Assembly: GCF_001514065.1 (NCBI RefSeq)
Contig: NZ_KQ948422.1
Location: 620,001-684,000, forward strand
Direction of reading: 5' to 3'
DNA: 64,000 nucleotides
Origin: Streptomyces antibioticus
GTDB taxonomy: Bacteria; Actinomycetota; Actinomycetes; Streptomycetales; Streptomycetaceae
The translations under genes were made by a program, and so were the position numbers. Each line of letters begins with the position of its first letter. Position 1 is the stretch's first letter. Shown piece by piece: positions 10,642 to 35,068 of the stretch. The notes below the pieces were generated by a model, which was not told the origin of the DNA, ran no database searches, and saw only the letters and a program-made list of their open reading frames with translations.

Positions 10642-11586
10642 TCATCGTGGCTGCGCCAGCACGGGGTCGGTCTCCCGGGCGGTCTCCACTATCCCCTTGA
10701 TCAGCAGGCGGGTACTCGCGGACGGTGACCGGTCGGCGAGGGTGGTGATCCCGATCTCGCGGGGCACGGTCTCCAGGACCAGGGGCAGCATGTCGAGCAG
10801 GGGGTCCCGTGCGCCGATCAGCATGGGCAGCGGGGCGACGGCGTCGGTTTCCAGCAGAACCGTCCTGAGCGTGAGGATCGTCGAGCATTCGATGATGTTC
10901 GCGGGGAGAGGCAGGCCTCGGCGGTCGAAGAGTTCGTCGATCTCTTGGCGTAGCTGGGTCTTGCGTCCCGGCAGGATCCACGGCAGGTCCATGAGGTCCT
11001 CGATGCCGCCGGTGGGTGTCCCGAGGCTGGGATGTTCGCGCCGGACGACGAGGCGAACCGGTTCGTCGTAGAGGCGCACGTGTCTCAGACTGGCGCGCAG
11101 GCTCGACGGCTGGAGTCGGCCGACCAGCACGTCCACTTCGCCTCGGGCGAGTTGCAGGGCGAGGTCCTCGGGCATCGCTTCGACAACCGAGACGGTCAGG
11201 TGCGGGTGGGCCTTCTTGAGCCGGATCAGGGTCTGCGGCAGAAGTGAGTAGGCACCGGCCAGGTTGGTTCCGACGCGTACAGGTTCCATGCCAAGACGCT
11301 GGAGCTCGTGGATCCGTTCGGCCGCGGTGCGCACGTTGCCGACGACGGTGCGGGCGTGCTCGATGAGGATCTCGCCGTACTGGGTCGGGCGGACGCCGCG
11401 TGGCCCCCTGGCGAAGAGTTTGACCCCCATGATCGTCTCGATCTCCTGGAGGCTTCGGGTCACGACCGGCTGGGTGACGTGCATCGCCTTGGCGGCCCCG
11501 ACCAGGGTGCCCTCATCGGCCACGACGGTGACGAGAACGAGATGGCGCAGTTTCAGCCGACCGTCCAAAAAGTGGTCCACGTTCAT
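10642..11586 (-). CDS. LysR-family regulator, probable regulator of the 3-hydroxyanthranilate operon
   Basis: This 314-residue protein has the LysR layout: a winged helix-turn-helix (residues about 13-70, with LVTVVADEGTLVGAAKAMHVT then QPVVTRSLQEIE) and a periplasmic-binding-protein-like effector domain starting at about 95 (PVRVGTNLAGAYSLLPQ). The ATG at 11586 follows GGAGAGGTG at good distance. The gene is divergent from the cyclase gene at 11697 with a 110-base shared promoter region, the classic LysR arrangement for auto-repression and effector-dependent activation. In the Pseudomonas nba cluster for 3-hydroxyanthranilate breakdown the regulator (NbaR) is also LysR type. The effector is unknown, perhaps a pathway intermediate. 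Confidence 0.9.
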   Translation of the reverse strand: MNVDHFLDGRLKLRHLVLVTVVADEGTLVGAAKAMHVTQPVVTRSLQEIETIMGVKLFARGPRGVRPTQYGEILIEHARTVVGNVRTAAERIHELQRLGMEPVRVGTNLAGAYSLLPQTLIRLKKAHPHLTVSVVEAMPEDLALQLARGEVDVLVGRLQPSSLRASLRHVRLYDEPVRLVVRREHPSLGTPTGGIEDLMDLPWILPGRKTQLRQEIDELFDRRGLPLPANIIECSTILTLRTVLLETDAVAPLPMLIGARDPLLDMLPLVLETVPREIGITTLADRSPSASTRLLIKGIVETARETDPVLAQPR

Positions 11587-11696
11587 GTCTCGACACCTCT
11601 CCGTAACATGGCGTTGGGCGCAGGTATAGCCAAACACGAATAGCGGCGACCGGAGAAGCATTAGTCAAGGCTGAATCCCTGCCAAAGGATGGGGCC

Positions 11697-12503
11697 ATGT
11701 CTTCGACACTCTCCGCACACGGCCCGCTGGGCGGCCTGACGTCCGCTCTGGCCTCCGGCGGCGTCGAGGTGGTCGACCTGACCGCCCTCCTGTCGCCGTC
11801 GACGCCCGTGCTCGACCTTCCGCCGGACATGGCGCCGATCCCTCACTTCGAGCTGGAGGAGCTGGCGCGGTACGACGAGCGGGGAAGCACGTCCTACCAG
11901 AACGGCATCCACACCGGTGAGCACGTGGGCACCCACTTCGACGCGCCGTGCCACTGGATCACCGGCGCCGACAAGGGGGACGTCGCCCACGTACCGGTCC
12001 CGCGCCTGGTGGCTCCCGCTGTCGTGATCGACAAGACCGCCGAGTGCGCCGCCGACCCCGACTTCCTGCTGACCGTTGAGCACCTCGAGGAGTGGCAGCA
12101 GCACAACGGCCCGCTTCCGCAAGGCGGTTGGCTGCTCTACCGCACCGGCTGGGCCGCCCGCTCGCACGACCAGCAGCTGTTCCTCAACGCCGACGAGAAC
12201 GGGCCGCACACACCCGGCCTCACGGCCGAATGCGCCCGCTGGCTGGCCGAGGAGTCCCCGATCGTCGGGCTCGGAGTGGAGACGGTCGGGACCGACGCCG
12301 GGCAGGCGTTCACCTTCACCCCGCAGTTCCCGGCGCACCACTACCTGCTGGGCGCGGGCAAGTACGGAGTCACCCAGTTGCAGAACCTGGACCGGCTGCC
12401 CCTCACCGGCGCCGTCCTGATCGTCGCTCCGCTCCGCATCGTCGGAGGGTCCGGCAGTCCGGCGCGGGTTCTCGCTCTCATCGAGAACGGAGAGGCCAAG
12501 TGA
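11697..12503 (+). CDS. Cyclase-family metal hydrolase (isatin hydrolase / kynurenine formamidase fold)
   Basis: A 268-residue member of the PF04199 cyclase family. The metal site HVGTHFDAPCH is present (His76, His80, Asp82), and a second conserved block LGVETVGTDAGQAF follows near 200. The family includes kynurenine formamidase, which usually has about 210 residues, and isatin hydrolase, about 260 residues and manganese-dependent, which opens isatin to isatinate. Length and the ThDP decarboxylase-like neighbour, whose plausible substrate would be isatinate (2-aminophenylglyoxylate), make isatin hydrolase my preferred reading. Kynurenine formamidase remains possible, but no kynureninase or tryptophan dioxygenase is present. 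It is the first gene of the operon; its stop overlaps the next GTG start. Confidence 0.85.
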   Translation: MSSTLSAHGPLGGLTSALASGGVEVVDLTALLSPSTPVLDLPPDMAPIPHFELEELARYDERGSTSYQNGIHTGEHVGTHFDAPCHWITGADKGDVAHVPVPRLVAPAVVIDKTAECAADPDFLLTVEHLEEWQQHNGPLPQGGWLLYRTGWAARSHDQQLFLNADENGPHTPGLTAECARWLAEESPIVGLGVETVGTDAGQAFTFTPQFPAHHYLLGAGKYGVTQLQNLDRLPLTGAVLIVAPLRIVGGSGSPARVLALIENGEAK

Positions 12504-14149
12504 CCGTACTGGTCCACGAAGCCATCGGCAGGCAGCTCACCGATCTCGGAGTCCGGACGGTCTTCGGCGTGGTCGGCAGCGGCAACTTCCACTTCACCGA
12601 CGCCATGGTGCGCGGTGGCGCTCGGTTCGTCGCCGCCCGTCACGAGGGCGGCGCGGCCACCATGGCGGACGCGTACGCCCGGATGTCCGACGAGGTCGCC
12701 GTGCTCTCCCTGCACCAGGGCTGCGGCTACACGAACGCCCTCACCGGCATCACCGAGGCCGCGAAGAGCAGGACACCGCTGCTGGTGCTGACCGCCGAAG
12801 CCGCCGATCCCACCTCGAACTTCGCGCTCGACCAGGCGGCGATCGCGACGGGGATCGGAGCGGTCGCGCTGCGCGTGAGGTCTGCCCGAACGGCCCTCGA
12901 CGATGTGGCACGGGCCTTCGCGATCTGCCGCAACCAGCGGCGCACGGTCGTCCTGAACGTCCCCATCGATGTTCAGGACGCTCCCCTGGACGCCCAGGCC
13001 CCGGCCCGGGAGTACCACCCGGTCGCCGAACCGCGGCCTGACGACATGGAGACAGCCGCCTTCGCCCAGCTGCTGGAACGCGCCGAGCGGCCGGTCTTCG
13101 TCGTCGGACGCGGTGGCCGATCCCCGGGCTCCAAGGACGCCGTGCGTGAACTGGCCGCCGAGGCGGGCGCACTCCTGGCCACGTCCGCCGTCTCCCGCGG
13201 GATGTTCAACGGCGACGACTGGAACATCGACGTCTCCGGTGGCTTCTCCTCGCCGCTGACGGCCGAACTCGTCTCCGGCGCCGACCTGGTGGTGGGATTC
13301 GGCTGCGCCCTGAACATGTGGACCATGCGGCACGGCAGGCTCATCGCGCCGGACGCTACCGTCGTCCAGGTCGACATCGAACCGGGGGCCATCGGCGTAC
13401 ACCGCGACGTGGACCTCGGGCTGTGGGGCGGTGTCGCCGCGACAGCCCGGGCCACCACCGCGTGGCTGCGCGCGAACTCGCCCGGCGGCCGCACGGGTTA
13501 CCGCACTCCGGACGTCGCCGAGCGGATCCGCTCCGGGCTGCGCTGGAACCAGGTCGGCTTCGAGGACGCGTCGGCGGACGGACGCGTCGACCCGCGCGGT
13601 CTGAGCGTCGCGCTCAACGACATCCTGCCCGCCGAGCGGATCGTCTCCGTGGACTCGGGCAACTTCCTCGGCTACCCGAGCATGTACCTCGACGTGCCCG
13701 ACGAGTACGGGTTCTGCTTCACCCAGGCGTTCCAGTCCGTCGGCCTGGGCCTGGCGACCGCGATCGGTGCCGCGCTGGCGCAGCCCGGCCGGCTGCCCGT
13801 GGCCGGCTGCGGTGACGGCGGGTTCCTGATGGGCCTGTCGGAGCTGGAGACCGTCGTACGGCTGGGTCTGCCCATGCTGATCGTCGTTTACAACGACGCC
13901 ATGTACGGCGCCGAGGTGCATCACTTCGGGGCCGGCACGAGCGGCCTCGACGCGGTGACCTTCCCCGACACGGACATCGCGGCGCTCGCGCGGGGACACG
14001 GGTGCGACGCGCTGACCATCCGGCGGCCCGAGGACACGCACGCCGTCAAGGAGTGGCTGTCGGCCGGCCCCGTCCGTCCCCTGGTGCTGGACGCCAAGAT
14101 CACCTCGGACGGGGGTTCCTGGTGGCTGCACGAAGCCTTCGGGCACTGA
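12500..14149 (+). CDS. Thiamine-diphosphate-dependent enzyme, benzoylformate-decarboxylase / acetolactate-synthase-like
   Basis: This 549-residue ThDP enzyme has the three-domain POX/ALS architecture. The catalytic Glu49 sits in RHEGGAATMADAYAR, and the ThDP/Mg motif GDGGF followed about 25 residues later by VVYNDAMYG is near residue 435. It starts at a GTG overlapping the upstream stop. Such enzymes decarboxylate 2-oxo acids. If the preceding gene makes isatinate, this aryl glyoxylate closely resembles benzoylformate and would be a sensible substrate, giving a 2-aminobenzaldehyde and CO2. The alternatives are carboligation or acyl-CoA lyase chemistry. The gap to the next gene, 55 bases, is the only sizeable one inside the operon. 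Confidence 0.88.
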   Translation: MTVLVHEAIGRQLTDLGVRTVFGVVGSGNFHFTDAMVRGGARFVAARHEGGAATMADAYARMSDEVAVLSLHQGCGYTNALTGITEAAKSRTPLLVLTAEAADPTSNFALDQAAIATGIGAVALRVRSARTALDDVARAFAICRNQRRTVVLNVPIDVQDAPLDAQAPAREYHPVAEPRPDDMETAAFAQLLERAERPVFVVGRGGRSPGSKDAVRELAAEAGALLATSAVSRGMFNGDDWNIDVSGGFSSPLTAELVSGADLVVGFGCALNMWTMRHGRLIAPDATVVQVDIEPGAIGVHRDVDLGLWGGVAATARATTAWLRANSPGGRTGYRTPDVAERIRSGLRWNQVGFEDASADGRVDPRGLSVALNDILPAERIVSVDSGNFLGYPSMYLDVPDEYGFCFTQAFQSVGLGLATAIGAALAQPGRLPVAGCGDGGFLMGLSELETVVRLGLPMLIVVYNDAMYGAEVHHFGAGTSGLDAVTFPDTDIAALARGHGCDALTIRRPEDTHAVKEWLSAGPVRPLVLDAKITSDGGSWWLHEAFGH

Positions 14150-14204
14150 GGCACCCCGGCATGAACCCCCCCGACCGCGTCACGACATGGGAGAGCGAGC
14201 TCTG

Positions 14205-15359
14205 ATGGGAAAGACGACAAGCGGCGTCTCCGTCATCGGTGCCGGCGAGTCGCCCTACACCCGGCATCCGGCATCCGGCACGACCACCGAAGGGGTGCTC
14301 GCCGACGCCGTACGCCGGGCACTCGCCGACGCGAACCTCACGACCTCCGACGTCGACGGTTTCGCCGCGTGCAGCTTCACCCTCGGCCCGGACCACGCCG
14401 TCGACCTGGCCTGGCGGCTGGGACTGCGGCTGCGCTGGCTGATGCAGGACACCAACGGCGGAGCGAGCGCCGGCACGATGCTCCAGCACGCCGTGCGGGC
14501 CGTGGAGTCCGGCGACGCCTCGGTCGTGGTGCTCGTGGCCGGCGACCTGATGGACCACCAGGTGCACCTCAGGATGGTGGCCGAGTACAACCGGGCCACC
14601 GCCGAGAATCTGGTCCCGCTGGACATGCTCGGACCGAACGCCCTCTTCGCACTGCTGACCCAGCGTCAGATGGAAGCCGAGGGCCTCACCCGCACGGACT
14701 ACGGGCGGCTCGCGGTGGCGCAACGCGCCTGGGCGGCCCTGAACCCAGGTGCCGTGTACCGCACGCCGATGACGCTCGACGACTACCTCAACGCCCCCAT
14801 GGTCGCCGAACCCCTCGGCCGCTACGACTGCGTACCGCCGGTCACAGGCGCCGACGCCGTGGTGGTCGCGGCCGACGAACGGGCCGCGGGCACGCGGCGC
14901 GCCAGGGTGCTGGCCGTATCGGCCCGTTACAACAGCGACGACCAGACAGGCGACGGCCTGGTGACCGGATTGGCCGACTGCGCCCCCGAGTTCTGGGACG
15001 CCGCGGGCCATGGGCCCGCCGACGTCGACGTGGTCAGCGTGTACGACGACTACCCGGCCATGGCACTCGCCCAGCTCAAGGATCTCGGGCTGGTCGCCGG
15101 CGGTGAGATGCCGGCCTTCATCGCCGAGCGCCTCGCCACCCGAAAGCTCGCCGTCAACACCTCCGGCGGCCAGCTCTCGGCCGGCCAGCCGGGCTCCGCG
15201 GGAGGCATGCACGGACTCGTGGAGGTCGTACGGCAGTTGCGCGGCCAGGCCGGGCAACGGCAGGTCGATGCCCGTCTCGGCCTGTTCAGCGGCTACGGGA
15301 TGGTCCTCTACCGCTACGGCGCGTGTGCCACCGCCGGACTTCTGGAGGCGGCCGCATGA
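14205..15359 (+). CDS. Thiolase-fold lipid-transfer-type protein lacking the catalytic Cys (Ltp2-like)
   Basis: The 384-residue protein has a thiolase fold of the SCP-x/non-specific lipid-transfer subclass. At the position of the nucleophilic Cys the sequence reads DTNGGASAGTML, without Cys, so classic thiolysis is unlikely. The C-terminal block NTSGGQLSAGQPGSAGG and the VYDDYPAMALAQL segment, whose Tyr aligns with a conserved YD motif in this subclass, resemble Ltp2. Ltp2 partners with a DUF35 protein as a retro-aldolase in steroid side-chain cleavage. The next gene encodes exactly such a DUF35 partner, overlapping by ATGA. Inferred role: retro-aldol cleavage of a beta-hydroxyacyl-CoA. The start at 14205 is preferred for GAGAG spacing; an in-frame ATG at 14187 is possible. 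Confidence 0.85.
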   Translation: MGKTTSGVSVIGAGESPYTRHPASGTTTEGVLADAVRRALADANLTTSDVDGFAACSFTLGPDHAVDLAWRLGLRLRWLMQDTNGGASAGTMLQHAVRAVESGDASVVVLVAGDLMDHQVHLRMVAEYNRATAENLVPLDMLGPNALFALLTQRQMEAEGLTRTDYGRLAVAQRAWAALNPGAVYRTPMTLDDYLNAPMVAEPLGRYDCVPPVTGADAVVVAADERAAGTRRARVLAVSARYNSDDQTGDGLVTGLADCAPEFWDAAGHGPADVDVVSVYDDYPAMALAQLKDLGLVAGGEMPAFIAERLATRKLAVNTSGGQLSAGQPGSAGGMHGLVEVVRQLRGQAGQRQVDARLGLFSGYGMVLYRYGACATAGLLEAAA

Positions 15360-15667
15360 GTGTGCTCGTGCAGAACTGCCGCACCTGCGGCGGCCAGTGG
15401 TTCCCCGCCCGGTTGCTCTGCCCCCGCTGCGGCGGCGCCGATCTGGCACCCAGAAGCATCGAGCGCGGGACGGTCGAGCAGCTCACCCATCTCGGCGACG
15501 TCGTCATCGCGTCGGTGGCCTGCGACCCCGAACCGCTGCTCGTGGCCAGGCTGCACGGCCCGGTCGAGGTCGGTGACGTCGTGGAACTCACCGACCGCCC
15601 CGGCCCGTCCGACCGCCCCGTCGCCTTCGTACCGCCGAGCGGCACACCCCGAGAGGAGTTGTCATGA
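15356..15667 (+). CDS. DUF35 zinc-ribbon / OB-fold partner protein
   Basis: This 103-residue protein has an N-terminal rubredoxin-like zinc ribbon (C9-x2-C12 and CPRC near residues 22-25) followed by an OB-fold, the DUF35 arrangement. DUF35 proteins bind acyl-CoA and activate thiolase-fold partners, as ChsH2's DUF35 domain does for Ltp2 and PhlB does for PhlC. It overlaps the thiolase-fold gene and the CoA ligase gene by ATGA at both ends, so the three products are probably made in fixed ratio and form one functional unit. It has no catalytic role on its own. Confidence 0.9.
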   Translation: MSVLVQNCRTCGGQWFPARLLCPRCGGADLAPRSIERGTVEQLTHLGDVVIASVACDPEPLLVARLHGPVEVGDVVELTDRPGPSDRPVAFVPPSGTPREELS

Positions 15668-17328
15668 GCGACGTCACCGGCACCACCGACGTCCACGGCA
15701 TGGCCCAGCTCACCGGCATCCCCGACCCCAGCATCGCGAGCGTCCCCGGACTGCTGCAATGGCGCGCGGACATCACCCCGGACAGCATCCTGCTGAGCTG
15801 CGGCGACACGCGAAGGACCGCCGCCCAGACGCTGGAACGGGTCGCCGTCACCGGAGGCCTGCTGCGCCGGCACGGAGTGGAGCAGGGCGACCGGGTGGCG
15901 CTGATGGCGTCCAACCGGGTCGAGTTGCTTGACCTGATCCTGGGCTGCGCGTGGATCGGTGCCGTCGCGGTGCCGATCAACACCGCCGCGCGGGGTGAGC
16001 AGCTCCATCACATCCTGACCAACTCACAGGCCGAGCTGCTGATCCTGGAACACCCCTTCCTCGCCCAGGTGGAGGCGTTGCCGAGCACCGCCGAGCTGCG
16101 TCAGATCTGGCTGCTGGACGAGGACGAGGTCGTCTCGGTGCTGCCGGTTCCCGTCGACGTGATCCCGGACGACGGCCTGGCGGTGGAGCCGGTCGCGGTC
16201 GGACCAGGGCATCCCGCGGTGATCCTGTACACCTCGGGCACCACCGGGGTCTCCAAGGGAGTGGTCTGCCCGCACGCCCAGTTCTACTGGTGGGGCCGCA
16301 ACGTCACGGCCCAGCTCGGCATCACCTCGGCCGATGTTCTGCACACCTGCCTGCCGCTGTTCCACACGAACGCCCTCAACGCCTTCAGCCAGGCGCTGGT
16401 CAGCGGTGCCCAGTACGTCATCGGCCCGCGCTTCTCGGCCTCCCGGTTCTGGTCGGACGTCACGGCCAGCGGAGCGACCTTCACCTATCTGCTGGGCGCC
16501 ATGATCAGCATCCTGGCAGGCCGGGCGCCCGGCGAGCACGATCGGGCGCACCGGGTGACCGCGGCACTGGCGCCGGCCACCCCCGCCGGGCTGCTCCGGG
16601 AGTTCGAGGAGCGGTTCGGGGTCGTCCTCATCGACGGCTACGGCTCGACCGAGACCAACGCGGTCATCTCCGCGAGCCGCACCGAACAGCGGCCGGGATA
16701 CGTCGGACGCCTCCAGGAGGGCTTCGCCGCCCGGATCGTCGACGAGAACGGGCTCGACGTGCCCCCCGGCACCCCGGGTGAACTGCTGCTGCGCAGCGAG
16801 CAGCCCTTCGCCTTCGCCTCCGGCTACCACCGCATGCACGACGCCACCGTCGCCGCGTGGCAGGACCTGTGGTTCCACACCGGTGACCGCATGGTGATCG
16901 AGGCGGACGGCTGGATCAGGTTCGTCGACCGCATCAAGGACGTGATCCGCCGACGCGGCGAGAACATCTCCTCCGTCGAGGTCGAGAGCGTCCTCGCCCA
17001 GCACCCCGGGGTCCGTGACGTCGCGGTGTACGCGGTGGACTCCGAACTCGGCGAGGACGAGGTGATGGCCGCCGTGGTCCCCGTCGACGGGCACCAGATC
17101 GACTTCGTCGAGCTGGTGGCCTTCTGCGAGCCCCGCCTGGCCTACTACGCCATTCCCCGCTTCGTGGCGCTGTGCCCGGAACTCCCGCTGACCGAGAACG
17201 GCAAGGTCCGTAAGACCGTGCTGCGGGAGTGGGGAGCCCGCCGCGCCGACTGGGACCGCGAGGCGGCCGGCGTCGTACTGCGGCGCGAACAGCCCACCAC
17301 GGTCCGCTCGGAAGGAGCCTCTGCATGA
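15664..17328 (+). CDS. AMP-forming acyl/aryl-CoA ligase
   Basis: A 554-residue member of the ANL adenylating superfamily. The P-loop-like motif YTSGTTGVSKGV is near 190, the ATP-binding GYGSTETN near 325, the HTGDR motif near 405, the hinge-region RRRGENISS near 435, and the catalytic Lys in LTENGKVRK near 520. It would activate a carboxylic acid to its CoA thioester using ATP. Coupled to the thiolase/DUF35 pair, the probable substrate is a side-chain carboxylate on an aromatic or oxindole ring rather than a long fatty acid, but specificity cannot be read from sequence. ATGA overlaps join it to both neighbours. Confidence 0.9.
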   Translation: MSDVTGTTDVHGMAQLTGIPDPSIASVPGLLQWRADITPDSILLSCGDTRRTAAQTLERVAVTGGLLRRHGVEQGDRVALMASNRVELLDLILGCAWIGAVAVPINTAARGEQLHHILTNSQAELLILEHPFLAQVEALPSTAELRQIWLLDEDEVVSVLPVPVDVIPDDGLAVEPVAVGPGHPAVILYTSGTTGVSKGVVCPHAQFYWWGRNVTAQLGITSADVLHTCLPLFHTNALNAFSQALVSGAQYVIGPRFSASRFWSDVTASGATFTYLLGAMISILAGRAPGEHDRAHRVTAALAPATPAGLLREFEERFGVVLIDGYGSTETNAVISASRTEQRPGYVGRLQEGFAARIVDENGLDVPPGTPGELLLRSEQPFAFASGYHRMHDATVAAWQDLWFHTGDRMVIEADGWIRFVDRIKDVIRRRGENISSVEVESVLAQHPGVRDVAVYAVDSELGEDEVMAAVVPVDGHQIDFVELVAFCEPRLAYYAIPRFVALCPELPLTENGKVRKTVLREWGARRADWDREAAGVVLRREQPTTVRSEGASA

Positions 17329-18779
17329 CCGAATACCGCAACTTCGTCGGTGGCCAATTCCTCGACGGAGCATCGCAGTTCGACGACATCAATCCCGTGG
17401 ACGGCACCCTCGTCGCCCGGGTGCACGAGGCGGACGCGTCCGTCGTAGACCGCGCGGTCCGCGCGGCTCGCAAAGCCCTCGGCGGACCGTGGGGCCGTAT
17501 GACGGTGGCCGACCGGTGTCGCCTGATGCGCGCCGTGGCCGACGAGATCGACCGGCGGGCGGACGACCTGCTCGCCGCCGAGGTCGCCGACACCGGCAAG
17601 CCCGAAGCCGGCGCCCGCCAACTGGACATCGCACGGGCCGCGGCGAACTTCCGCAGCTTCGCCGACGTCGTGGCCGCGGAGGGCGTGGAGTCCTTCCTCC
17701 TTGAGTACGGCGAGGGGCGCCAGGCCCTGAACTACGCGGTCCGCAAGCCGCTGGGGGTGGTGGCCGCCATCGCACCGTGGAACCTTCCGCTGCTGCTGTT
17801 GACGTGGAAACTCGCCCCGGCGCTGGCATCCGGCAACACGGTCGTCATCAAGCCGTCGGAGGAGACGCCCGGTTCGGCCACGGTACTGGCCGAGATCATG
17901 ACGGCCGCGGGCGTGCCCGACGGCGTCTTCAACCTCGTGCACGGCTTCGGAGCCGGCTCGGCGGGCGAACTGCTGACGACGCACCCGGGCATCGACGGGG
18001 TCACCTTCACCGGCTCCTCCGCCACCGGTGCCGGCATCATGAAGGCGGTGGCACCCCGCGTGCGACCGGTCTCCTTCGAACTCGGCGGCAAGAACGCGGC
18101 GTTGGTCTTCGCGGACGCCGACCTCGACGCGACCGTCGAAGGACTGACCCGCTCGGTCTTCGCCAACACCGGCCAGGTGTGTCTGTGCACCGAGCGCGTC
18201 TACATCGAACGCTCGGTCTTCGACGAGGTCAGCGAGCGGCTGGTGGAGCGGGCCCGGTCCCTGCGGCTGGGACGTCCCTCCGATCCGACCACCACCACCG
18301 GGCCCGTCATCTCGGCCGAGCATCAGCGCAAGGTCCTCGGCTACTTCGACCTCGCCGAGCGGGCCGGCGCGACGGTCCTCACCGGTGGCGGAACGGCCAA
18401 GGTGGACAGCGACCTCGCCGGCGGGTTCTGGGTCGAGCCGACGCTGTGGACGGGCTTGACGAACTCGGACCGTGTCGTGCGCGAGGAGATCTTCGGTCCC
18501 GCCGCGGCCCTCATCCCGTTCGACACGGAGGAGGAGGCCGTCTGGCTCGCCAACGACACCGACTACGGCCTCGCCGCCTCCGTCTGGACCACGGACCTGT
18601 CCCGCGGGCATCGGGTCGCCCAGCGCATGGACGTCGGAATCGCGTGGGTGAACACCTGGTTCCTGCGCGAACTGCGCTCGCCCTTCGGCGGCAGGGGCCT
18701 GTCCGGCATCGGCCGGGAGGGCGGTCGGCACTCCCTGGACTTCTACACGGAACCCACCAACGTCTGCGTGGCGATCTGA
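17325..18779 (+). CDS. nbaE: 2-Aminomuconate 6-semialdehyde / 2-hydroxymuconate semialdehyde dehydrogenase
   Basis: This 484-residue NAD-dependent aldehyde dehydrogenase has the general-base Glu in SFELGGKN and the nucleophilic Cys in NTGQVCLCTERV (about 287). The C-terminal RELRSPFGGRGLSGIGREGG signature is typical of the XylG/DmpC/AmnC subgroup acting on muconate semialdehydes; its Arg is the kind used to hold the substrate carboxylate. In this operon, with 3-hydroxyanthranilate dioxygenase and ACMS decarboxylase downstream, the expected substrate is 2-aminomuconate 6-semialdehyde. It may also have to oxidise an aminobenzaldehyde made upstream, since no other aldehyde dehydrogenase is present. 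The ATG at 17325 has GGAAGGAG upstream. Confidence 0.92.
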   Translation: MTEYRNFVGGQFLDGASQFDDINPVDGTLVARVHEADASVVDRAVRAARKALGGPWGRMTVADRCRLMRAVADEIDRRADDLLAAEVADTGKPEAGARQLDIARAAANFRSFADVVAAEGVESFLLEYGEGRQALNYAVRKPLGVVAAIAPWNLPLLLLTWKLAPALASGNTVVIKPSEETPGSATVLAEIMTAAGVPDGVFNLVHGFGAGSAGELLTTHPGIDGVTFTGSSATGAGIMKAVAPRVRPVSFELGGKNAALVFADADLDATVEGLTRSVFANTGQVCLCTERVYIERSVFDEVSERLVERARSLRLGRPSDPTTTTGPVISAEHQRKVLGYFDLAERAGATVLTGGGTAKVDSDLAGGFWVEPTLWTGLTNSDRVVREEIFGPAAALIPFDTEEEAVWLANDTDYGLAASVWTTDLSRGHRVAQRMDVGIAWVNTWFLRELRSPFGGRGLSGIGREGGRHSLDFYTEPTNVCVAI

Positions 18780-19589
18780 ATGCCCATCCCAACCGAAAGC
18801 CACACCGCCAACTGGCTGGCGGCAGCCGACCGGCTGGCCGCAGCGGCATCGTCGGGCACCCCGTGCGACCCCGTGCGCGACCTCATCGGCGCGCAGGATC
18901 TCGATGCCGCGTACGCCGTGCAGTCCGAGCTGATCGAGCGCCGTCTGACGGGCGGAGCACGCATCGTGGGACGCAAGATCGGCCTGACGGCACCGGCCGT
19001 GCAGCAGCAGTTCGGCGTCCACCAGCCGGACTTCGGCGTCCTTCTGGACGACATGATCCACGCGGACTCCGCGGTACTGCCCCTGGGCGACTTCATCGCA
19101 CCACGCGTCGAGGGCGAGATCGCGTTCGTACTGGGAGCCGACCTGGACAACCCCCGGACCACCGTCGTCGACGTGCTGCGGGCCACCCAGTACCTGCTGC
19201 CGGCCATCGAGGTCGTCGACTCGCGCATCCGCGGCTGGGACATCTCCCTCGCCGACACCGTGGCCGACAACGCCTCCTCCGGAGCGGTCGTCCTCGGCAC
19301 CACCGCCTACGACCCGGTCGGCCTCGACCTCACCGAGGTGGCGATGACGCTGGAGCACGCAGGCGAACCGGTCTCCACCGGCACCGGCGCGGCCTGCCTG
19401 GGCTCCCCGGTCAATGCCGTGGTGTGGCTGGCCCGCGAGTGCGCCGCCCGGGGCCGCCCCCTGGCCTCCGGGGAGGTGGTTCTCTCCGGCGCCCTCGGGC
19501 CGATGGTCCAGGTCGACGGACCGGGTCACCACCGGGTCGACATCTCCGGTCTGGGACACGTCGCAGTGCACTTCGAGGAGACAGCGTGA
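18780..19589 (+). CDS. nbaH: 2-Oxopent-4-enoate hydratase
   Basis: A 269-residue MhpD/DmpE-type hydratase of the fumarylacetoacetase superfamily. Typical blocks are GRKIGLTAPAVQQQFGVHQPDFGVL (about 62-86), the metal-binding [13 protein letters not shown] near 114 and AIEVVDSRIRGWD near 145. It adds water to 2-oxopent-4-enoate to give 4-hydroxy-2-oxovalerate in the lower meta-cleavage pathway. The QQ-GV-QPDFG signature separates it from the decarboxylase encoded next. The ATG immediately follows the dehydrogenase stop. A paralogue lies at 35069. Confidence 0.9.
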   Translation: MPIPTESHTANWLAAADRLAAAASSGTPCDPVRDLIGAQDLDAAYAVQSELIERRLTGGARIVGRKIGLTAPAVQQQFGVHQPDFGVLLDDMIHADSAVLPLGDFIAPRVEGEIAFVLGADLDNPRTTVVDVLRATQYLLPAIEVVDSRIRGWDISLADTVADNASSGAVVLGTTAYDPVGLDLTEVAMTLEHAGEPVSTGTGAACLGSPVNAVVWLARECAARGRPLASGEVVLSGALGPMVQVDGPGHHRVDISGLGHVAVHFEETA

Positions 19590-20389
19590 CAGCGCACACG
19601 GCGGCCCACGCGCCGCACATCGAGAACGTCGTCGACCGGCTGGACCTCGCCGAGACGTCACGGACCCCGGTCGGTGACGACGGCACCTGGCCCGCCCTCA
19701 CCCTGGACGAGGCCTACACCGCACAGGCGGCCCTGTTCGCACGCCGCACGGCGCGAGGCGAGCACGAAGCAGGGCTCAAGCTCGGTTTCACGAGCGCGGC
19801 CAAGATGCGGCAGATGGGCGTCTCCGACCTCATCGTCGGCCGCCTCTCCGATGCCATGCGGATCGCGGAGGGCGACGTCCTGGACCGCACGGCCCTCATC
19901 CATCCCCGGGTCGAGCCGGAGGTGGTCTTCCGCGTCGCCCGCGATGTCGACCTGGCCGACCCGGACGCCGATCTCGCCTCCTCGGTCGACGCCGTCGCCC
20001 CCGCGATGGAGATCATCGACTCGCGCTACGAGGGCTTCAAGTTCGACCTGCCGCGCGTCGTCGCGGACAACACGTCGGCGGCCCGCTACGTGACCGGCGC
20101 GTGGGTGCCCGTCGACCCGCAGGCACTGGGCAACCTCGCCGTCACCCTGCGGGTGGACGGACGGGACACCGCCTACGGCTCGACGTCGGCCATCCTCGGC
20201 CACCCGATGCGCACCCTCACGCGCCTCCAGGCGCTCGGCGCCCGCCTCGGACTGCGGCTGCGGGCCGGGGCCGTGGTGCTCGCCGGGGCGGCAACAGCAG
20301 CCGTCCCCCTGCCCGTCGGTCATGTCGAGGTCGCCATCCCGACCCTCGGACGCGTGAGCATCCAGGTCGAAGGAGCACGACATGAGTGA
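19586..20389 (+). CDS. nbaG: 4-Oxalocrotonate decarboxylase
   Basis: This 267-residue protein belongs to the same superfamily as its neighbour but has decarboxylase-type blocks: GLKLGFTSAAKMRQMGVSDLI (about 57-77) and PRVEPEVVFRVARDV near 110, matching DmpH/XylI proteins. It would decarboxylate 2-oxo-3-hexenedioate (4-oxalocrotonate) to 2-oxopent-4-enoate, ideally in complex with the hydratase, because the product is unstable. The two genes overlap through a GTGA junction, which supports complex formation. The start codon is GTG; upstream codons in this frame lie inside the hydratase gene. Confidence 0.9.
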   Translation: MTAHTAAHAPHIENVVDRLDLAETSRTPVGDDGTWPALTLDEAYTAQAALFARRTARGEHEAGLKLGFTSAAKMRQMGVSDLIVGRLSDAMRIAEGDVLDRTALIHPRVEPEVVFRVARDVDLADPDADLASSVDAVAPAMEIIDSRYEGFKFDLPRVVADNTSAARYVTGAWVPVDPQALGNLAVTLRVDGRDTAYGSTSAILGHPMRTLTRLQALGARLGLRLRAGAVVLAGAATAAVPLPVGHVEVAIPTLGRVSIQVEGARHE

Positions 20390-20822
20390 GGCCTACCTCC
20401 TGGACGGCAAGGCCCGTCCGCGCGGACGCTTCCCGCACGCCAAGCGGGCCGGGAACCTCGTGTACGTCTCCGGCACCAGCAGCCGGCTGCCGTCGAACGA
20501 GATCGTCGGCGCCCGCGTCGACGAGCTGGGCACGGTCGATCTCGACATCCGCGCCCAGACCGCGGCGGTCATCGAGAACATCGCCGACATCCTGCGCCCG
20601 ATCGGAGGCGGCCTCGACGACCTCGTCCAGGTGACCGCCTACCTCGTCTCCATGAACGACTTCGGTGGCTTCAACGAGGTCTACGCCCGCTACTTCGACG
20701 AGAACGGCCCGACCCGCACCACCGTCGCCGTCCATCAACTCCCCCATCCCCACCTGCTGATCGAGATCCAGGCGGTCGCCTGGATCGATCCCGCCCGTGA
20801 CACGACACAGGAGCAGCCATGA
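20382..20822 (+). CDS. nbaF: 2-Aminomuconate deaminase (RidA/YjgF family)
   Basis: A 146-residue RidA-family protein: GRFPHAKRAGNLVYVSGTSS near the N-terminus and LLIEIQAVAWID near the C-terminus. In 2-aminophenol and 3-hydroxyanthranilate pathways a protein of this family (AmnD/NbaF) hydrolyses 2-aminomuconate to 4-oxalocrotonate and ammonia. It is longer than housekeeping RidA (about 130 residues) and lies between the decarboxylase and the dioxygenase, which fixes the assignment. Both ends overlap neighbouring genes by 4-8 bases. Confidence 0.9.
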   Translation: MSEAYLLDGKARPRGRFPHAKRAGNLVYVSGTSSRLPSNEIVGARVDELGTVDLDIRAQTAAVIENIADILRPIGGGLDDLVQVTAYLVSMNDFGGFNEVYARYFDENGPTRTTVAVHQLPHPHLLIEIQAVAWIDPARDTTQEQP

Positions 20823-21352
20823 CCGACACAGCCTCCGGCATCACCCCGGCCGTGAACTTCGCCGCCTGGATCAAGGACAACGAGCAGCTGCTCAAGCCCC
20901 CGGTCAACAACCAGGCGATCTTCACCGGCGACGACTTCATCGTCCAGGTCGTCGGCGGTCCCAACCAGCGCACCGACTTCCACGTCGACCCCTACGAGGA
21001 GTGGTTCCACCAGGTCAAGGGCGACATGCACGTCAACGTGATGACGGCGGACGGCGAACGGACCGTTCACATCAAGGAGGGCGAGACCTGGCTGCTGCCC
21101 CGCAACACGCCGCATTCGCCCCAGCGCCCCCACGCCGGATCCATCGGCGTCGTCATCGAGCGCATCCGCGAGGAGGGCACCCTGGAGAAGTTCCAGTGGT
21201 ACTGCCCGAGTTGCTCGGCTCTGGTCCACGAGGTCGAGCTCCAGGTCCGTGACATCGTCGACGATCTGCCCCCGGTGTTCACCGCGTTCTACGAGGACGA
21301 GCAGGCCCGTACCTGCAAGGCCTGCGGGACGCTGCACCCGGGCAAGGGCTGA
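20819..21352 (+). CDS. nbaC: 3-Hydroxyanthranilate 3,4-dioxygenase
   Basis: This 177-residue cupin opens the ring of 3-hydroxyanthranilate with O2 to 2-amino-3-carboxymuconate 6-semialdehyde. Iron ligands and substrate residues are all in place: Arg51, His55, Glu61, His99, Arg103, Glu114, plus the C-terminal rubredoxin-like iron site Cys129, Cys132, Cys166 and Cys169. As I remember the well-studied bacterial enzyme, these match its active-site positions with a constant offset of four. The short bacterial type with the second metal site is therefore clear. This is the strongest functional anchor for the operon. Confidence 0.96.
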   Translation: MTDTASGITPAVNFAAWIKDNEQLLKPPVNNQAIFTGDDFIVQVVGGPNQRTDFHVDPYEEWFHQVKGDMHVNVMTADGERTVHIKEGETWLLPRNTPHSPQRPHAGSIGVVIERIREEGTLEKFQWYCPSCSALVHEVELQVRDIVDDLPPVFTAFYEDEQARTCKACGTLHPGKG

Positions 21353-21359
21353 GCCGGCG

Positions 21360-22373
21360 ATGGCAGACATCATCGACGTGCACACGCACTACGTGCCCCG
21401 AGGCTGGCCGCAGCTGCCGGGCGCGGGACCGAACCCCTGGCTCGACGTGCGGACCGAGAGCGAGGCGGTGATCATGGTCGGCTCACGCGAGTTCCGCAAG
21501 GTCACCGCCAACGCGTGGGACGTGGAGACCCGGCTCGCCGAGATGGACGCCGACGGCGTCGCGGCGCAGGTCATGTCGCCGACACCGGTCTTCTTCTCCT
21601 ACGACCGGGATCCCGAGGAGTCGGCGGCGATCGCACGGATCTTCAACGACCTGGCCCTGGAGATCGCCGCGGGCTCTCCCTCGCGGCTGATTCCCTTCTG
21701 TCAGGTGCCGTTGCAGGACACCGACGCCGCGTGTGCCGAAGTCGAACGCTGCATGGCGGCCGGCCACCGGGGCGTCGAGATCGGCAACCACGTCGGCGAC
21801 CGCGATCTCGACGACGCCGGGATCGTGACGTTCCTCCAGCACTGCGCGGACCTCGGCGCACCGGTCTTCGTCCACCCCTGGGACATGGCCTCCTCGGTCC
21901 GTTCGGACCGGTGGATGGCGCAGTGGCTCGCCGGGATGCCTGCCGAGACCCATCTGTCGATCCTCGCGATGATCCTCGGCGGCACCTTCGACCGCGTCTC
22001 GGACCAGCTGAAGATCTGCTTCGCGCACGGCGGCGGATCGTTCGCCTTCTGGCTGGGACGCATGGAGAACGCCTGGCACCAGCGCCACGATGTCATCGGC
22101 ACCTCCGCCGCACCTCCCTCGCACTACCTCGACCGCTTCTCGGTCGACTCGGTCGTCTTCGACGAGCGGGCCCTGCGCCTCCTGGTCGACACGCTGGGAA
22201 CGGAACGGGTCATGACCGGAAGCGACTACCCCTACCCGCTCGGCGAACGCCCGGTGGGCAACGTCGTCCGCACGGCCGGCTTCCTCGACGAGGCCCAGCG
22301 CGAGCTGGTGTTGTCCGGAAACGCGCGACGGTTCCTCGGCAGCGCCACCGTCGCGGTCGGCACTCCGGTCTGA
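21360..22373 (+). CDS. nbaD: 2-Amino-3-carboxymuconate 6-semialdehyde decarboxylase (ACMSD)
   Basis: This 337-residue amidohydrolase-superfamily decarboxylase has zinc ligands His8 and His10 in DVHTHYVPRG, His in VFVHPWDM (about 175), a catalytic His in CFAHGGGSFAF (about 224) and the Asp of MTGSDYPYPLGE (about 290). These match ACMSD. It removes CO2 from the dioxygenase product before it cyclises spontaneously to quinolinate, giving 2-aminomuconate 6-semialdehyde. The ATG at 21360 lies seven bases after the dioxygenase stop. It is the last catalytic gene of the operon. Confidence 0.94.
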   Translation: MADIIDVHTHYVPRGWPQLPGAGPNPWLDVRTESEAVIMVGSREFRKVTANAWDVETRLAEMDADGVAAQVMSPTPVFFSYDRDPEESAAIARIFNDLALEIAAGSPSRLIPFCQVPLQDTDAACAEVERCMAAGHRGVEIGNHVGDRDLDDAGIVTFLQHCADLGAPVFVHPWDMASSVRSDRWMAQWLAGMPAETHLSILAMILGGTFDRVSDQLKICFAHGGGSFAFWLGRMENAWHQRHDVIGTSAAPPSHYLDRFSVDSVVFDERALRLLVDTLGTERVMTGSDYPYPLGERPVGNVVRTAGFLDEAQRELVLSGNARRFLGSATVAVGTPV

Positions 22374-22735: not shown

Positions 22736-24076
22736 ATGAGCTCCATCACCCCGCGCACAGTCGCTGCCCCACCCCAGTCGATCCGCAAGGTCGCCCTCGC
22801 CAGCCTGGCCGGCACCGCGCTCGAGTGGTACGACTTCTTCCTCTACGGCACCGCCTCCGCCTTGGTGTTCGGCCCCCTCTTCTTCCCCGGGGCCAGCTCC
22901 CTCGCCGGCACCCTCGCCTCGTTCGGCACCTTCGCCGTCGGCTTCGCGGCCCGCCCCCTGGGCGGAATCGTCTTCGGTCACTTCGGAGACCGGCTCGGCC
23001 GCAAACCGATGCTGGTGATCACCCTGCTGGTCATGGGTGTCGCCACCTTCCTGATCGGAGCCCTGCCCACCTACGCGCAGATCGGGGTATGGGCGCCGAT
23101 CCTCCTCGTCCTGCTGCGTGTACTCCAGGGCATCGCGGTCGGGGGCGAGTGGGGCGGCGGCGTCCTCATGATCACCGAGCGCGCACCCGAGGGACGGCGC
23201 GGCTTCTACTCGGCGTGGAGCCAGGTCGGCATCAACCTCGGCTTCATCACGTCCGCCGGAGTCTTCGCCGCGGTCCAGACGATGTCCGACGAGGCGTTCC
23301 TGTCCTGGGGCTGGCGCATTCCCTTCCTTCTGGGAGCCATCCCCGCGCTCGTCGGGCTCGTCATCCGCCTGAAGGTCGAAGAAACACCGGAATTCCAGAC
23401 CGTCCAGCACGACGGTGGCAAGCAGCGCCTGCCCGTCCTGCACGCCCTGCGCACCCACCCGCGCTCGATCCTGATCGCGGCGGGCGCCCGGATGGCGGAG
23501 AACGGCGGCTCCTACGTCTTCCTCGTGTTCAGCCTCGCCTACGGCAAGCACATCGGGGTCGACAGCGGCCTCCTGCTGACCGGCATCATCATCGCGAACG
23601 TGGTCGAAGGCGCCTCCATGGTGGGGTTCGGCGCCCTCTCGGACCGCATCGGCCGCCGCCCCGTCTACATGGCCGGTGCCGCCACCCTCATCGCCTTCGC
23701 GTTCCCCTTCTTCTGGCTCGTGGACTCCGGCACCCCCGCGCTGGTCTGGCTCGCCTTCGTCATCGCCCTCGGCATCGGTCACGGCGCCATGATCGGAACC
23801 CAGCCGGCCTTCTTCACCGAACTGTTCGGCAAGTCCTCCCGCTACAGCGCGATTTCGCTGGGACACGAACTCGCCTCGGTGTTCGCCGGCGGTCTCTCAC
23901 CGCTCATCGCCACCGCCCTGCTGGCCGCGACCGACTCCTCCTGGCCCATCTCGCTGTACCTCGTCCTCCTCGGCTGTATCACGCTGGTTGCCGTCTATTT
24001 CGCCCGCGAGACGGTGCAGCGCGACGCCCCGCCCGCGCCGACCCCGCAGCTGCAACCGGCCAACACACACCAGTAG
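22736..24076 (+). CDS. MFS permease, metabolite:H+ symporter (MHS) family
   Basis: A 446-residue, 12-helix major facilitator protein. The N-terminal ASLAGTALEWYDFFLYGTAS, the loop motif HFGDRLGRKPML between helices 2 and 3, and RVLQGIAVGGEWGGG are hallmarks of the MHS family (shikimate, alpha-ketoglutarate, proline/betaine and aromatic acid importers). Located at the end of the catabolic operon, it probably imports the pathway substrate, an organic acid, by proton symport. The ATG at 22736 follows AGAGGTGACGAG. The hydrophilic C-terminal tail is Pro-rich. A strong terminator follows. Confidence 0.9.
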   Translation: MSSITPRTVAAPPQSIRKVALASLAGTALEWYDFFLYGTASALVFGPLFFPGASSLAGTLASFGTFAVGFAARPLGGIVFGHFGDRLGRKPMLVITLLVMGVATFLIGALPTYAQIGVWAPILLVLLRVLQGIAVGGEWGGGVLMITERAPEGRRGFYSAWSQVGINLGFITSAGVFAAVQTMSDEAFLSWGWRIPFLLGAIPALVGLVIRLKVEETPEFQTVQHDGGKQRLPVLHALRTHPRSILIAAGARMAENGGSYVFLVFSLAYGKHIGVDSGLLLTGIIIANVVEGASMVGFGALSDRIGRRPVYMAGAATLIAFAFPFFWLVDSGTPALVWLAFVIALGIGHGAMIGTQPAFFTELFGKSSRYSAISLGHELASVFAGGLSPLIATALLAATDSSWPISLYLVLLGCITLVAVYFARETVQRDAPPAPTPQLQPANTHQ

Positions 24077-27176: not shown

Positions 27177-30100
27177 GTGAATCCCGCACATAGAAGCTCT
27201 CGGACCCGTGCCGTGACCGTGGCAGCCGCCGCCTCGGTCGTGGTTTCGGCCCTGATGTTCGGCGGGCTGCTGCCCGCCCAGGCCGCCACCACCGATCCCA
27301 CGCCGAGCGCTCTGGAGAAGACCAACGCGGCCCTGTCCCGCTCCGCCGGAGCGCAGGGCATGGTGCTGATGGAGAATCACGATCAGGCACTGCCGATCGC
27401 GTCGTCAGGAAACGTCGCCCTGTACGGAATCGGCGCCTACGTCACCGTCAAGGGCGGCACCGGCTCCGGCGCCGTCAACAACCGTGCGACGGTCACCGCC
27501 CGCCAAGGCCTGGAGAGCGCGGGCTACAAGGTCACCACCAGCAGCGCCTACTGGTCCGCGATGACCTCGGCCTACGACACCAAGTACGGCAACAGCGGCT
27601 CCGGCGGCATCTTCGGCCCGACGATCGACTACTCCTCGGTGGAACAGCCGCTCACCGCCGACACGGTGAAGCCCACCACGAAGACCGACACGGCCGTCTA
27701 CGTGATAGCCCGCAACTCCGGTGAGGGCGCCGACCGTTCGTCCGGCAAGGGCGACTACCAGCTGGCCGACACCGAGCGCGCCAACCTCGAACTCCTGGGC
27801 CGCACCTACAAGCGCGTGGTCGTCGTCATCAACTCCGGCGGTGTCATCGACACCACCTTCTACCGGCAGATCAACAAGGCGGAGAGGGACGCTTCCGGCG
27901 GGCTCGCGCTGGACGCGATGCTGCTCATGAGCCAGGCCGGTCAGGAGAGCGGCAACGCCCTGGTCGACGTGTTGAAGGGAACCGTCACCCCTTCGGGCAA
28001 GCTCACCGACACCTGGGCCTCGGCCTACTCGCTCTACCCGACCTCCGCGACCTTCGCGAACAACGACGGGAACTCCACCACCGAGGAGTACAGCGAAGGC
28101 ATCTACGTCGGCTACCGCTACTTCGACTCCTTCTACAAGCGACTCGCCCCCGACCCCGCCTCCGTCGTCAACTACCCCTTCGGCTACGGCGCTTCCTACA
28201 CCGACTTCGATGTCCGAGCGCAGAAGGTCACCGCCGGCGCGCAGCAGGTGAAGGTCACCGCCAAGGTCACCAACACCGGGAAGCGCTACAGCGGCAGCGA
28301 GGTGGTGCAGATCTACGTCTCCGCCCCGCAGACCGGCCAGGACAAGGCGTACCAGCAGCTGGCGGGCTACGCGAAAACCGACAACCTGGCTCCCGGCGCC
28401 TCGCAGACCGTGACCATCAGCTTCGACACCACCTCCCTGGCCTCCTACGACGAGTCCCGCGCCGCCTACGTCCTGGACGCGGGCGACTACCTGGTCCGTG
28501 TCGGCACCTCCTCCCGCGACACCCACGTCGCAGCCAGGTTGAGCCTGCTCAAGAGCGTGGTGACGGAGCAGGACCACACCGAGCTGGACGACCAGAAGCC
28601 CACGAGCGAACTGACCAGCGACCCGGCCGACTTCTACACCTACGCCGGTGAGAAGAACGAGATCGCGCGAGCCCAGCGGATCTTCCTCAACCCGAAGTCG
28701 TTCCGCACCGAGCACAACGCCTCGCCCTACGAGCAGGACGTCACCGTCGACTCCTCCTCCCCGTACTACGCGCTCGACGGGTCGAAGGTCTCCTCGACCA
28801 CCGTCTACCTGGACAGGAACCAGAAGAACTGGGAGAACACCGGCGCCCCCTACAAGGCGAAGACCGGTGAGAACGTCAAGTACGTCAACACCAGTTCCTC
28901 CTCCACGCTGTACGACGTCGCCAAGGGCAAGGTCTCCATGGAGCAGTTCGTCGCCGGCCTGTCGGTGACACAGCTCGCCAACATCGTGGAAGGCACCAGC
29001 CTGAGTGGCACCACCCCGTCCGCCGTCGGCGCCGCCGGCTACACCACCGGCGCCTACGAAAGCCTGGGCATCCCCAGCACGACCCTGGCGGACGGGCCCG
29101 CCGGACTGCGCCTCACCCAGCAGATCGCCACCACGCCCACCTCCTACCAGTACGCCACAGCCTTCCCGATCGGCACCTCGCTCGCCCAGACCTGGGACCG
29201 GGACCTGGTCCGGAAGGTCGGCGCGGCGATCGGCGAGGAGATGAACACCTACGGAGTCCAGCTGTGGCTGGCGCCCGGCATGAACCTCCACCGCGACCCG
29301 CTCAACGGCCGCAACTTCGAGTACTACTCCGAGGACCCGCTGATCACCGGCCTCACCGCCGCCGCCACCACCCAGGGCGTGCAGAGCAGGCCGGGCGCCG
29401 GTGTCACGATCAAGCATCTCGCCGGGAACAACCAGGAGACCAGCCGCAGCGGCGGCAACGACGTGGTCGGTGAGCGGGCGATGCGCGAGATGGAGCTCAA
29501 GGGCTTCGAGATCGCGGTGAAGGCCGCCCAGCCGATGGCCGTCATGAGCTCCTACAACAAGATCAACAACACCTACGCGTCCGGCAACTACGACCTCCTC
29601 ACCGACCTGCTGCGCGGTGAATGGGGCTTCCAGGGCACCGTGATGACCGACTGGGGCGGCGCGCACGGCGCGACCAACACGATGTACTCGGGCAACGACC
29701 TGATCATGCCCGGCGGGAAACCCTCCGACATCGTCAACGCGACGATCAAGACCGCGCCGGCCGTCGACCTCAACGGACTCCCCGCCTACACGAAGACGGT
29801 CAAGACCACCGGCAACCCCAGCTACACCTTCCAGCTCGGCGCGCTCACCCTGGCCGCAGGCGGCACAACGACCGTCTCCACCACCGTCGACAGCAAGACC
29901 GACCTGTCGAAGACCCCGCTCTCCGGCACGGTCACCGTGGACGCCATCAACAACCAGACCTACACGGCCAACGCCAAGTTCACCTCGGTCGACGACGCCT
30001 ATCGCTCCGTGCAGACCCTGCTGGCCTCCACTGCCCTGACCGCCGCGCAGAAGGCCGCGATCACCGTCTCGGGCGTCCAGTACGCGACCGCCGGTGACGC

Positions 30101-34008: not shown

Positions 34009-34201
34009 GTCATCCCATTCGTGAGAAGGTGCGCGGGAGATGCGAGAGAGCAGGTGCCGGCGGCAGTGGACCACCAGGCCCGCACAGAACGAACGGCTTC
34101 GGTCCGCTCTCCGGACCTCGCGGCGGCGCACGCGAGGAGGGCGCCGCTCGCCTCGACAGATCGAACGCCCGCTCCTGGTCCCGTACAGTCGAGATGCCGC
34201 G

Positions 34202-34987: not shown

Positions 34988-35006
34988 TCCGGCGCCGCCC
35001 ACGACC

Positions 35007-35027
35007 GAGTTCCGCGAGGCGGAACTC
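35007..35027. promoter_or_regulatory. Perfect IclR-type operator dyad
   Basis: GAGTTCCGC-GAG-GCGGAACTC is a perfect 9-bp inverted repeat with 3-base spacer, located between the IclR stop (34987) and the hydratase start (35069). The format matches IclR-family operators. Confidence 0.65.
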
Positions 35028-35068
35028 ATTGCTGGGCCTGGGACGACCCTCCTGTTCAAGCTGTGGGC

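Follow-up and report, generated by a model that had tools for sequence, protein, structure and literature searches.

The stretch analyzed here, referred to throughout as the window, comprises 64,000 nucleotides of contig NZ_KQ948422.1 in the 10.1-Mb genome of Streptomyces antibioticus and contains an operon in which a five-gene upper set is followed without a break by a set for the meta-cleavage of 3-hydroxyanthranilate (3-HAA). According to the open reading frame (ORF) calls for the window, the operon consists of 11 closely packed genes, all on the forward strand (11697-22373); taken with called starts, the genes overlap by 4 or 8 bases at seven of the 10 junctions and abut at one, and 7 and 55 bases separate them at the other two. 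The upper genes encode a cyclase-family enzyme (11697-12503; PF04199), a thiamine diphosphate (ThDP) enzyme (12500-14149; GTG start, three TPP domains), a thiolase-fold protein (14205-15359), a zinc-ribbon protein of the zf-ChsH2/DUF35 type (15356-15667; PF12172, 27.9 bits; no NCBIfam match at the limits used), and an AMP-forming CoA ligase (15664-17328; PF00501; NF004808 [PRK06155], 785 bits over a cut-off of 722). Coordinates, Pfam and NCBIfam families, and packing thus confirm the initial annotation in its claim of an operon joining five upper genes to 3-HAA cleavage. NCBIfam equivalog cut-offs are passed by the 3-HAA dioxygenase, the CoA ligase, and the semialdehyde dehydrogenase and are not reached by the cyclase, the ThDP enzyme, the thiolase, the hydratase, the decarboxylase, and the RidA protein. 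In a scan with the thiolase, the nearest loci are from other Streptomyces (94-95% identity).

The lower set starts with a 2-(amino/hydroxy)muconic semialdehyde dehydrogenase (17325-18779; TIGR03216, 779 bits over a cut-off of 693), followed by a 2-oxopent-4-enoate hydratase-like protein (18780-19589; PRK11342, 299 bits, below the cut-off of 350), a 4-oxalocrotonate decarboxylase-like protein (19586-20389; TIGR03218, 193 bits, below the cut-off of 351), a RidA family protein proposed to be the 2-aminomuconate deaminase (20382-20822; PF01042), the 3-HAA 3,4-dioxygenase, which is the sole strong copy in the genome (20819-21352; NF009763, 258 bits over 220; TIGR03037, 218 bits over 146), and an amidohydrolase (21360-22373; PF04909) without an NCBIfam match at E ≤ 1e-20, which its position and family suggest to be an ACMSD-like (ACMS decarboxylase) enzyme. 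The same dioxygenase, ACMSD-like, semialdehyde dehydrogenase, RidA, decarboxylase, and hydratase genes make up 3-HAA meta-cleavage of the nba/kynurenine type, from which the window differs in that an isatin-type upper set, rather than a kynureninase, appears to feed the route. The operon had been thought to hold a complete lower route, which is not borne out: the final steps are encoded farther downstream by a second hydratase, an acetaldehyde dehydrogenase, and a 4-hydroxy-2-oxovalerate aldolase (35063-37847), which stand behind an IclR regulator gene in a forward-strand cluster (34040-37847; assigned by Pfam) that completes the route. In two relatives (L028 and L029; loci and genomes are designated here by L and G numbers), a counterpart of this cluster stands right behind the LysR gene. 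The absence of kynurenine genes, likewise claimed initially, holds for the window, which has no kynureninase match, and fails for the genome, in which a kynureninase is encoded on another contig beside a protein read from its sequence as tryptophan 2,3-dioxygenase.

The closest solved relatives of the thiolase-fold protein are the retro-aldolases 9myr (CtSal) and 6ok1 (TcLtp2), with which it has in common the fold family (judged by sequence), the catalytic Tyr, and a DUF35-type partner; the Gln pair of CtSal is also matched in the alignment. It differs from these steroid-acting enzymes in the oxindole substrate proposed for it and in the motif at the catalytic Tyr (Tyr280), which reads YDDY in all 89 thiolase relatives, as against the YDHF of Ltp2 and the YDCY of Sal, the types described in PMC12329534. 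There is no match to the second catalytic acid, which is Tyr344 in Ltp2 and Cys304 in Sal; Asp282 occupies the place of the Sal Cys. Its Gly85-Gly86 region is free of Cys, and the lack of Cys at the catalytic positions, as first reported in the initial annotation, leads us to reject an ordinary thiolase. The DUF35-type partner has four zinc-type Cys residues that recur in 50 of 50 matches. If active, the YDDY protein would represent a new variant of the DUF35-partnered retro-aldolases. A divergent YDDY thiolase (44-46% identity) is also found in marine alphaproteobacteria (L091, L092, L094-L097, L101, and L102), beside another ThDP enzyme (21-34%) and in a shared neighbourhood.

The cyclase has seven solved matches, of which the best four are isatin hydrolases (E of 8.5e-77 to 1.1e-73). 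Aligned with the isatin hydrolases LaIHA, LaIHB, and RsIHA, which belong to the same family, it retains the Mn site (HxxxHxD), the further His/Asp/His residues, and the proton-shuttle residues, the metal ligands and shuttle being those defined in PMC6117287. A kynurenine formamidase was considered and rejected, none of the seven solved matches being so named and the NCBIfam arylformamidase model reaching 24 bits versus 223. The pocket differs from that of the isatin hydrolases: Trp59 and Trp61 of LaIHA are replaced by Ser66 and Gln68 in all 12 cyclases of the window's clade, while Trp66 is retained in all 27 cyclase rows outside it (the count omits L151, which is on the same contig as L028, and L163, which has no cyclase match, leaves L175 outside, and includes in the window's clade L036, whose contig is cut off too early to reveal a 3-HAA dioxygenase). 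Both pocket types occur in three genomes, namely, the window's own, G070, and G794. A GxTQ loop was dropped as a mark of 3-HAA-linked cyclases because stand-alone Streptomyces copies have GLTQ.

The ThDP enzyme is proposed to be an isatinate-type decarboxylase. Its Ser27 and His72, invariant in six of six homologues, would stand, by alignment coordinates only, opposite positions 26 and 70, where the Pseudomonas benzoylformate-type ThDP decarboxylase has its catalytic Ser26 and His70. Homologues (E ≤ 1e-150) are found in 57 of 392 Streptomyces genomes, frequently away from the other upper genes: among 55 such stand-alone places listed, 15 were read, and in 14 of these the cyclase adjoins the ThDP enzyme, no other gene family recurring in more than three. 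Hence, the cyclase and the ThDP enzyme belong together as a two-gene unit. The window's genome itself has a second, stand-alone pair with a Trp-type pocket (L149, on contig C14), 64% and 60% identical to the operon's proteins. In another locus, L157, the gene after the pair is 49% identical to an annotated bifunctional salicylyl-CoA 5-hydroxylase/oxidoreductase and combines FAD_binding_3 with Oxidored_FMN, the make-up of 2-aminobenzoyl-CoA monooxygenase/reductase; this would fit an aminobenzoate as the product of the cyclase-ThDP pair.

Taking these findings together, we see about an even chance that this is a catabolic operon for an acid of the 3-hydroxy-2-oxindole-3-acetate (dioxindole-3-acetate) type, its ring most likely already 7-hydroxylated, that feeds 3-HAA cleavage. 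Gene content, packing, families, and conserved coupling are observed directly, whereas the substrates throughout, the sequence of the upper reactions, and the hydroxyl on the ring are our inference. The CoA ligase would convert the acid to its acyl-CoA, and the YDDY protein with its DUF35 partner would split this tertiary beta-hydroxyacyl-CoA by retro-aldol cleavage into an isatin and acetyl-CoA. The isatin-hydrolase-like enzyme would then open the isatin to isatinate, which the ThDP enzyme would decarboxylate to a 2-aminobenzaldehyde, to be oxidized by an aldehyde dehydrogenase, none being dedicated to this step in the operon. The resulting 3-HAA would pass through the dioxygenase, the ACMSD-like decarboxylase, the semialdehyde dehydrogenase, RidA, the decarboxylase, and the hydratase.

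Much of the proposed upper chemistry is already known for auxin. The iad loci of Variovorax paradoxus CL14 and Bradyrhizobium, with their route via isatin and isatinic acid, have the same trio of CoA ligase, thiolase-like protein, and cyclase-family hydrolase as the window, which differs in having a LysR rather than a MarR regulator, in having a ThDP enzyme, and in continuing into a 3-HAA lower route where iad loci end at anthranilate; its ligase also falls into a different subgroup from those of iad-type loci (33-36% identical). Since IadD and IadE probes from L059 find no match in the window (E ≤ 1e-25), the operon is not an iad locus. The Rieske protein of L059 matches the solved 7yls and 8h2t at an E of 1e-209, which are structures of Variovorax IadD. 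Ten Paraburkholderia loci with IadCDE-like genes, L059 among them, have thiolases that are 55-58% identical to that of the window and likewise YDDY. According to PMC12633357, which also describes the roles of the iad genes, including the ligase, thiolase-like, and cyclase-family products, C10H9NO4 accumulates most in an iadF mutant, with C8H7NO3 and C7H7NO regarded as pathway intermediates upstream of anthranilate; we read these three as dioxindole-acetate, isatinate, and aminobenzaldehyde. Isatin itself was detected in an earlier iad study (PMC9613470). The operon appears to correspond in function to the central part of the iad pathway, with 3-HAA cleavage attached. Searches of the open-access literature brought up no report that we recognized as linking oxindole-acetate breakdown to 3-HAA.

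The coupling proposed in the initial annotation is confirmed as conserved. Another 11 actinobacterial loci cluster upper genes with a 3-HAA dioxygenase (L022, L023, L028-L033, L035, L150, and L175; in L035, the dehydrogenase and the dioxygenase are all that is seen of the lower set in the cluster), and five Burkholderiales loci (L024, L056, L065, L077, and L079) combine the ligase, thiolase, and DUF35 genes with the 3-HAA set. Conceivably, the 3-HAA set serves kynurenine catabolism and is merely adjacent to an isatin-type operon with which it shares no pathway; consistent with this, a kynureninase is encoded on another contig, and a kynureninase-like match (33-56% identity) is present in 12 of the 23 further 3-HAA loci read from Streptomyces, which were drawn from the 37 other genomes with a dioxygenase match. 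Yet none of these 23 has the cyclase, the ThDP enzyme, or the thiolase, and in the window the ligase and dehydrogenase genes overlap by 4 bases. Moreover, the coupling arose repeatedly, in that the 3-HAA-linked rows of a 90-row thiolase tree need at least two origins (seven rows being omitted from the last change count), and a second 3-HAA set is present where the first was lost: four Streptomyces relatives (L028, L029, L030, and L150) have one about 6-7 kb downstream of the ligase, with a dioxygenase 63-65% identical, while the first set, though lost, has left clear traces behind the ligase in L029 and L150, namely, the beginning of the dehydrogenase gene and the final part of the ACMSD gene, and a weak trace of 29 residues in L030. 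We therefore regard mere adjacency as very improbable. The thiolase is rare, being found in three of 392 Streptomyces genomes at E ≤ 1e-80 and, in a class-wide sample of 394, in the window's own genome alone. The 3-HAA dioxygenase (E ≤ 1e-40) is found in 40 of the 392, and all three thiolase genomes have both genes in one cluster, a co-clustering that exceeds chance.

Several observations weigh against the dioxindole-acetate reading. The signature loop of the cyclase is GVTQ, where isatin hydrolases have GLQC or GLAS, because of which we file the enzyme as isatin-hydrolase-like only. The 3-HAA-linked cyclase of L175 has Trp66; the two Trp are thus lost in 12 of 13 linked cases, and the pocket change is a feature of the clade, which weakens the notion of a Ser/Gln pocket as the hallmark of all 3-HAA-linked cyclases. 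The best solved and NCBIfam matches of the ThDP enzyme are to other ThDP enzymes, and family scores, all below cut-off (for the benzoylformate decarboxylase model, 137 bits against 493), do not settle its function. In the Burkholderiales loci, neither the cyclase nor the ThDP enzyme is present in the stretches read, and three of the four genomes of these organisms have no cyclase at E ≤ 1e-40, so in these organisms the reactions beyond the thiolase must take a different course. FAD_binding_3 genes, in turn, occur 2.4 kb from the cyclase of L033 and about 25 kb downstream of the operon in the window (46969-48702). Finally, the authors of PMC12633357 propose that the side chain is removed reductively, unlike the retro-aldol cleavage proposed here, and the compound they report is C8H7NO2 rather than isatin.

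These deviations invite the alternative that the upper genes serve some other N-aromatic acid, for instance, a hydroxylated quinoline or an N-acyl aminobenzoyl compound, with correspondingly different substrates for the cyclase and the ThDP enzyme. Both the Ser66/Gln68 pocket and the GVTQ loop, departing as they do from the tested isatin hydrolases, would be in line with it, as would the cyclase- and ThDP-free coupling of ligase, thiolase, and DUF35 genes to 3-HAA in the Burkholderiales stretches. Against it stand the proximity in sequence between the cyclase and isatin hydrolases and that between the thiolase and its iad counterparts, along with a family of ACAD-type monooxygenases shared by four of the five linked Burkholderiales loci and L027 (73%), whose other genes resemble an iac auxin cluster. 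On balance, we consider this alternative quite unlikely.

A related question is whether the ring is hydroxylated before entry or only after the upper steps. In the second case, unsubstituted dioxindole-3-acetate would yield anthranilate, which an unlinked hydroxylase would convert to 3-HAA before ring cleavage. Anthranilate is the end product of every reported iad pathway, and an anthranilate-to-3-HAA route is known in Geobacillus (PMC4539516); the FAD_binding_3 genes of the window and L033 and the Trp-type pocket of L175 would also suit such a sequence of events. Nevertheless, candidate hydroxylases stand beside the cluster in other relatives (L171, L041, L038, and L157) and not in the linked loci. 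Six oxygenase probes, namely, IadD, IadE, the ACAD-type monooxygenase, the salicylyl-CoA 5-hydroxylase-like protein, and two enzymes of the window itself (FAD and luciferase type), find no match (E ≤ 1e-25) in the linked actinobacterial loci, where domain scans covered part of the ORFs. An anthranilate 3-hydroxylase of the HpaB type was rejected after a search of the genome, in which no HpaB-family protein matches at E ≤ 0.001. The Ser66/Gln68 pocket of the window's clade, too, speaks against an unsubstituted ring, and we hold late hydroxylation to be unlikely. For the 7-hydroxylated entry compound that we favor, plants offer a source: according to PMC9458244, maize makes 7-hydroxy-oxindole-acetate glucoside, and rice bran contains glycosides of 3,5-dihydroxy-indolinone-acetate; the 7-hydroxy acid is termed corn-specific in PMC8329485. 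The oxindole-type interpretation of the initial annotation is supported in part: it gains from the conserved coupling to 3-HAA, while entry in 7-hydroxylated form is plausible and unproven.

Neighbourhoods with and without nbaC, a comparison suggested in the initial annotation, both exist. In four thiolase genomes, G065-G068 (L037, L038, L042, and L048), a 3-HAA dioxygenase is lacking at E ≤ 0.001, and some relatives have instead gentisate-dioxygenase-like lower genes. In L026, L044, L048, L103, L169, L170, and L171, a carbon-nitrogen hydrolase, a gentisate-dioxygenase-like cupin scoring below the gentisate cut-off, an FAA hydrolase, and an Asp/Glu-racemase or Amdase-type protein occur together. 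The ligase and thiolase accompany them in five of these seven loci (L170 and L171 have neither within the stretch read), and L048 also has the cyclase and the ThDP enzyme. Because an amide-type hydrolase follows, this set might act on 5-hydroxyanthranilate. The cyclase is also present in seven of the nine loci with an indolepyruvate-oxidoreductase-alpha-like gene. We advance, more tentatively, a modular system for ring-hydroxylated auxin catabolites, with a ligase/YDDY/DUF35 core, an isatin-opening pair (the hydrolase with either the ThDP decarboxylase or the indolepyruvate-oxidoreductase-like pair), and a lower pathway matching the position of the hydroxyl; a 7-hydroxyl would be served by the 3-HAA dioxygenase, with a remodelled cyclase pocket in the window's clade, and a 5-hydroxyl elsewhere by the gentisate-dioxygenase-like enzyme on 5-hydroxyanthranilate. 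On a Caballeronia plasmid (L171:3242-15628), indolepyruvate-oxidoreductase subunits, a thioesterase, and a salicylyl-CoA 5-hydroxylase-like protein are encoded with the gentisate-dioxygenase-like cupin, FAA hydrolase, carbon-nitrogen hydrolase, racemase, and cyclase; together, these may form a route via anthraniloyl-CoA and 5-hydroxyanthranilate.

Other genes surround the operon and its relatives. Upstream lies a divergent LysR-family regulator on the reverse strand (10642-11661; PF03466 and PF00126, with the PcaQ model below its cut-off), which also adjoins the operon in relatives such as L022 and L028-L033. After the operon comes an MFS (major facilitator superfamily) metabolite/H+ symporter proposed for uptake (22736-24076, forward strand; PF07690; TIGR00883, 410 bits, below the cut-off of 443), a family present in 31 of 86 loci. 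Five kilobases downstream of the operon, a GH3 glycoside hydrolase gene (27213-30365) could release a plant glucoside or reflect plain synteny; homologues 88-90% identical lie near the second 3-HAA set in two relatives only (L176 and L178). A further region of the window (40410-64000) is catabolic-looking, with a peptide-type ABC transporter, luciferase-type and FAD_binding_3 monooxygenases, a CoA-transferase of family III, and alpha/beta hydrolases. In the linked Rhodococcus, Nocardioides, and Nonomuraea clusters, genes for an Asp/Glu-racemase-family protein and an Ohr-type peroxiredoxin, with no evident role in the 3-HAA route, are also present (L022:16105-17329, L032:18420-19624, and L033:18320-19533). 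An additional gene of the TrpC (indole-3-glycerol-phosphate synthase) family is found in the Burkholderiales clusters L024, L056, L063, L065, L077, and L079, the copy in L024 passing the TrpC cut-off.

If the dioxindole-acetate reading is true, soil and root actinobacteria can use auxin waste that is oxidized and ring-hydroxylated, for instance from maize, a fate on which the open-access searches brought up no report. The operon would then also supply candidate enzymes for two steps of the iad pathway that are unassigned or doubtful, the release of isatin from the CoA ester and the decarboxylation of isatinate, and YDDY would be a third active-site type among the thiolase-fold retro-aldolases.

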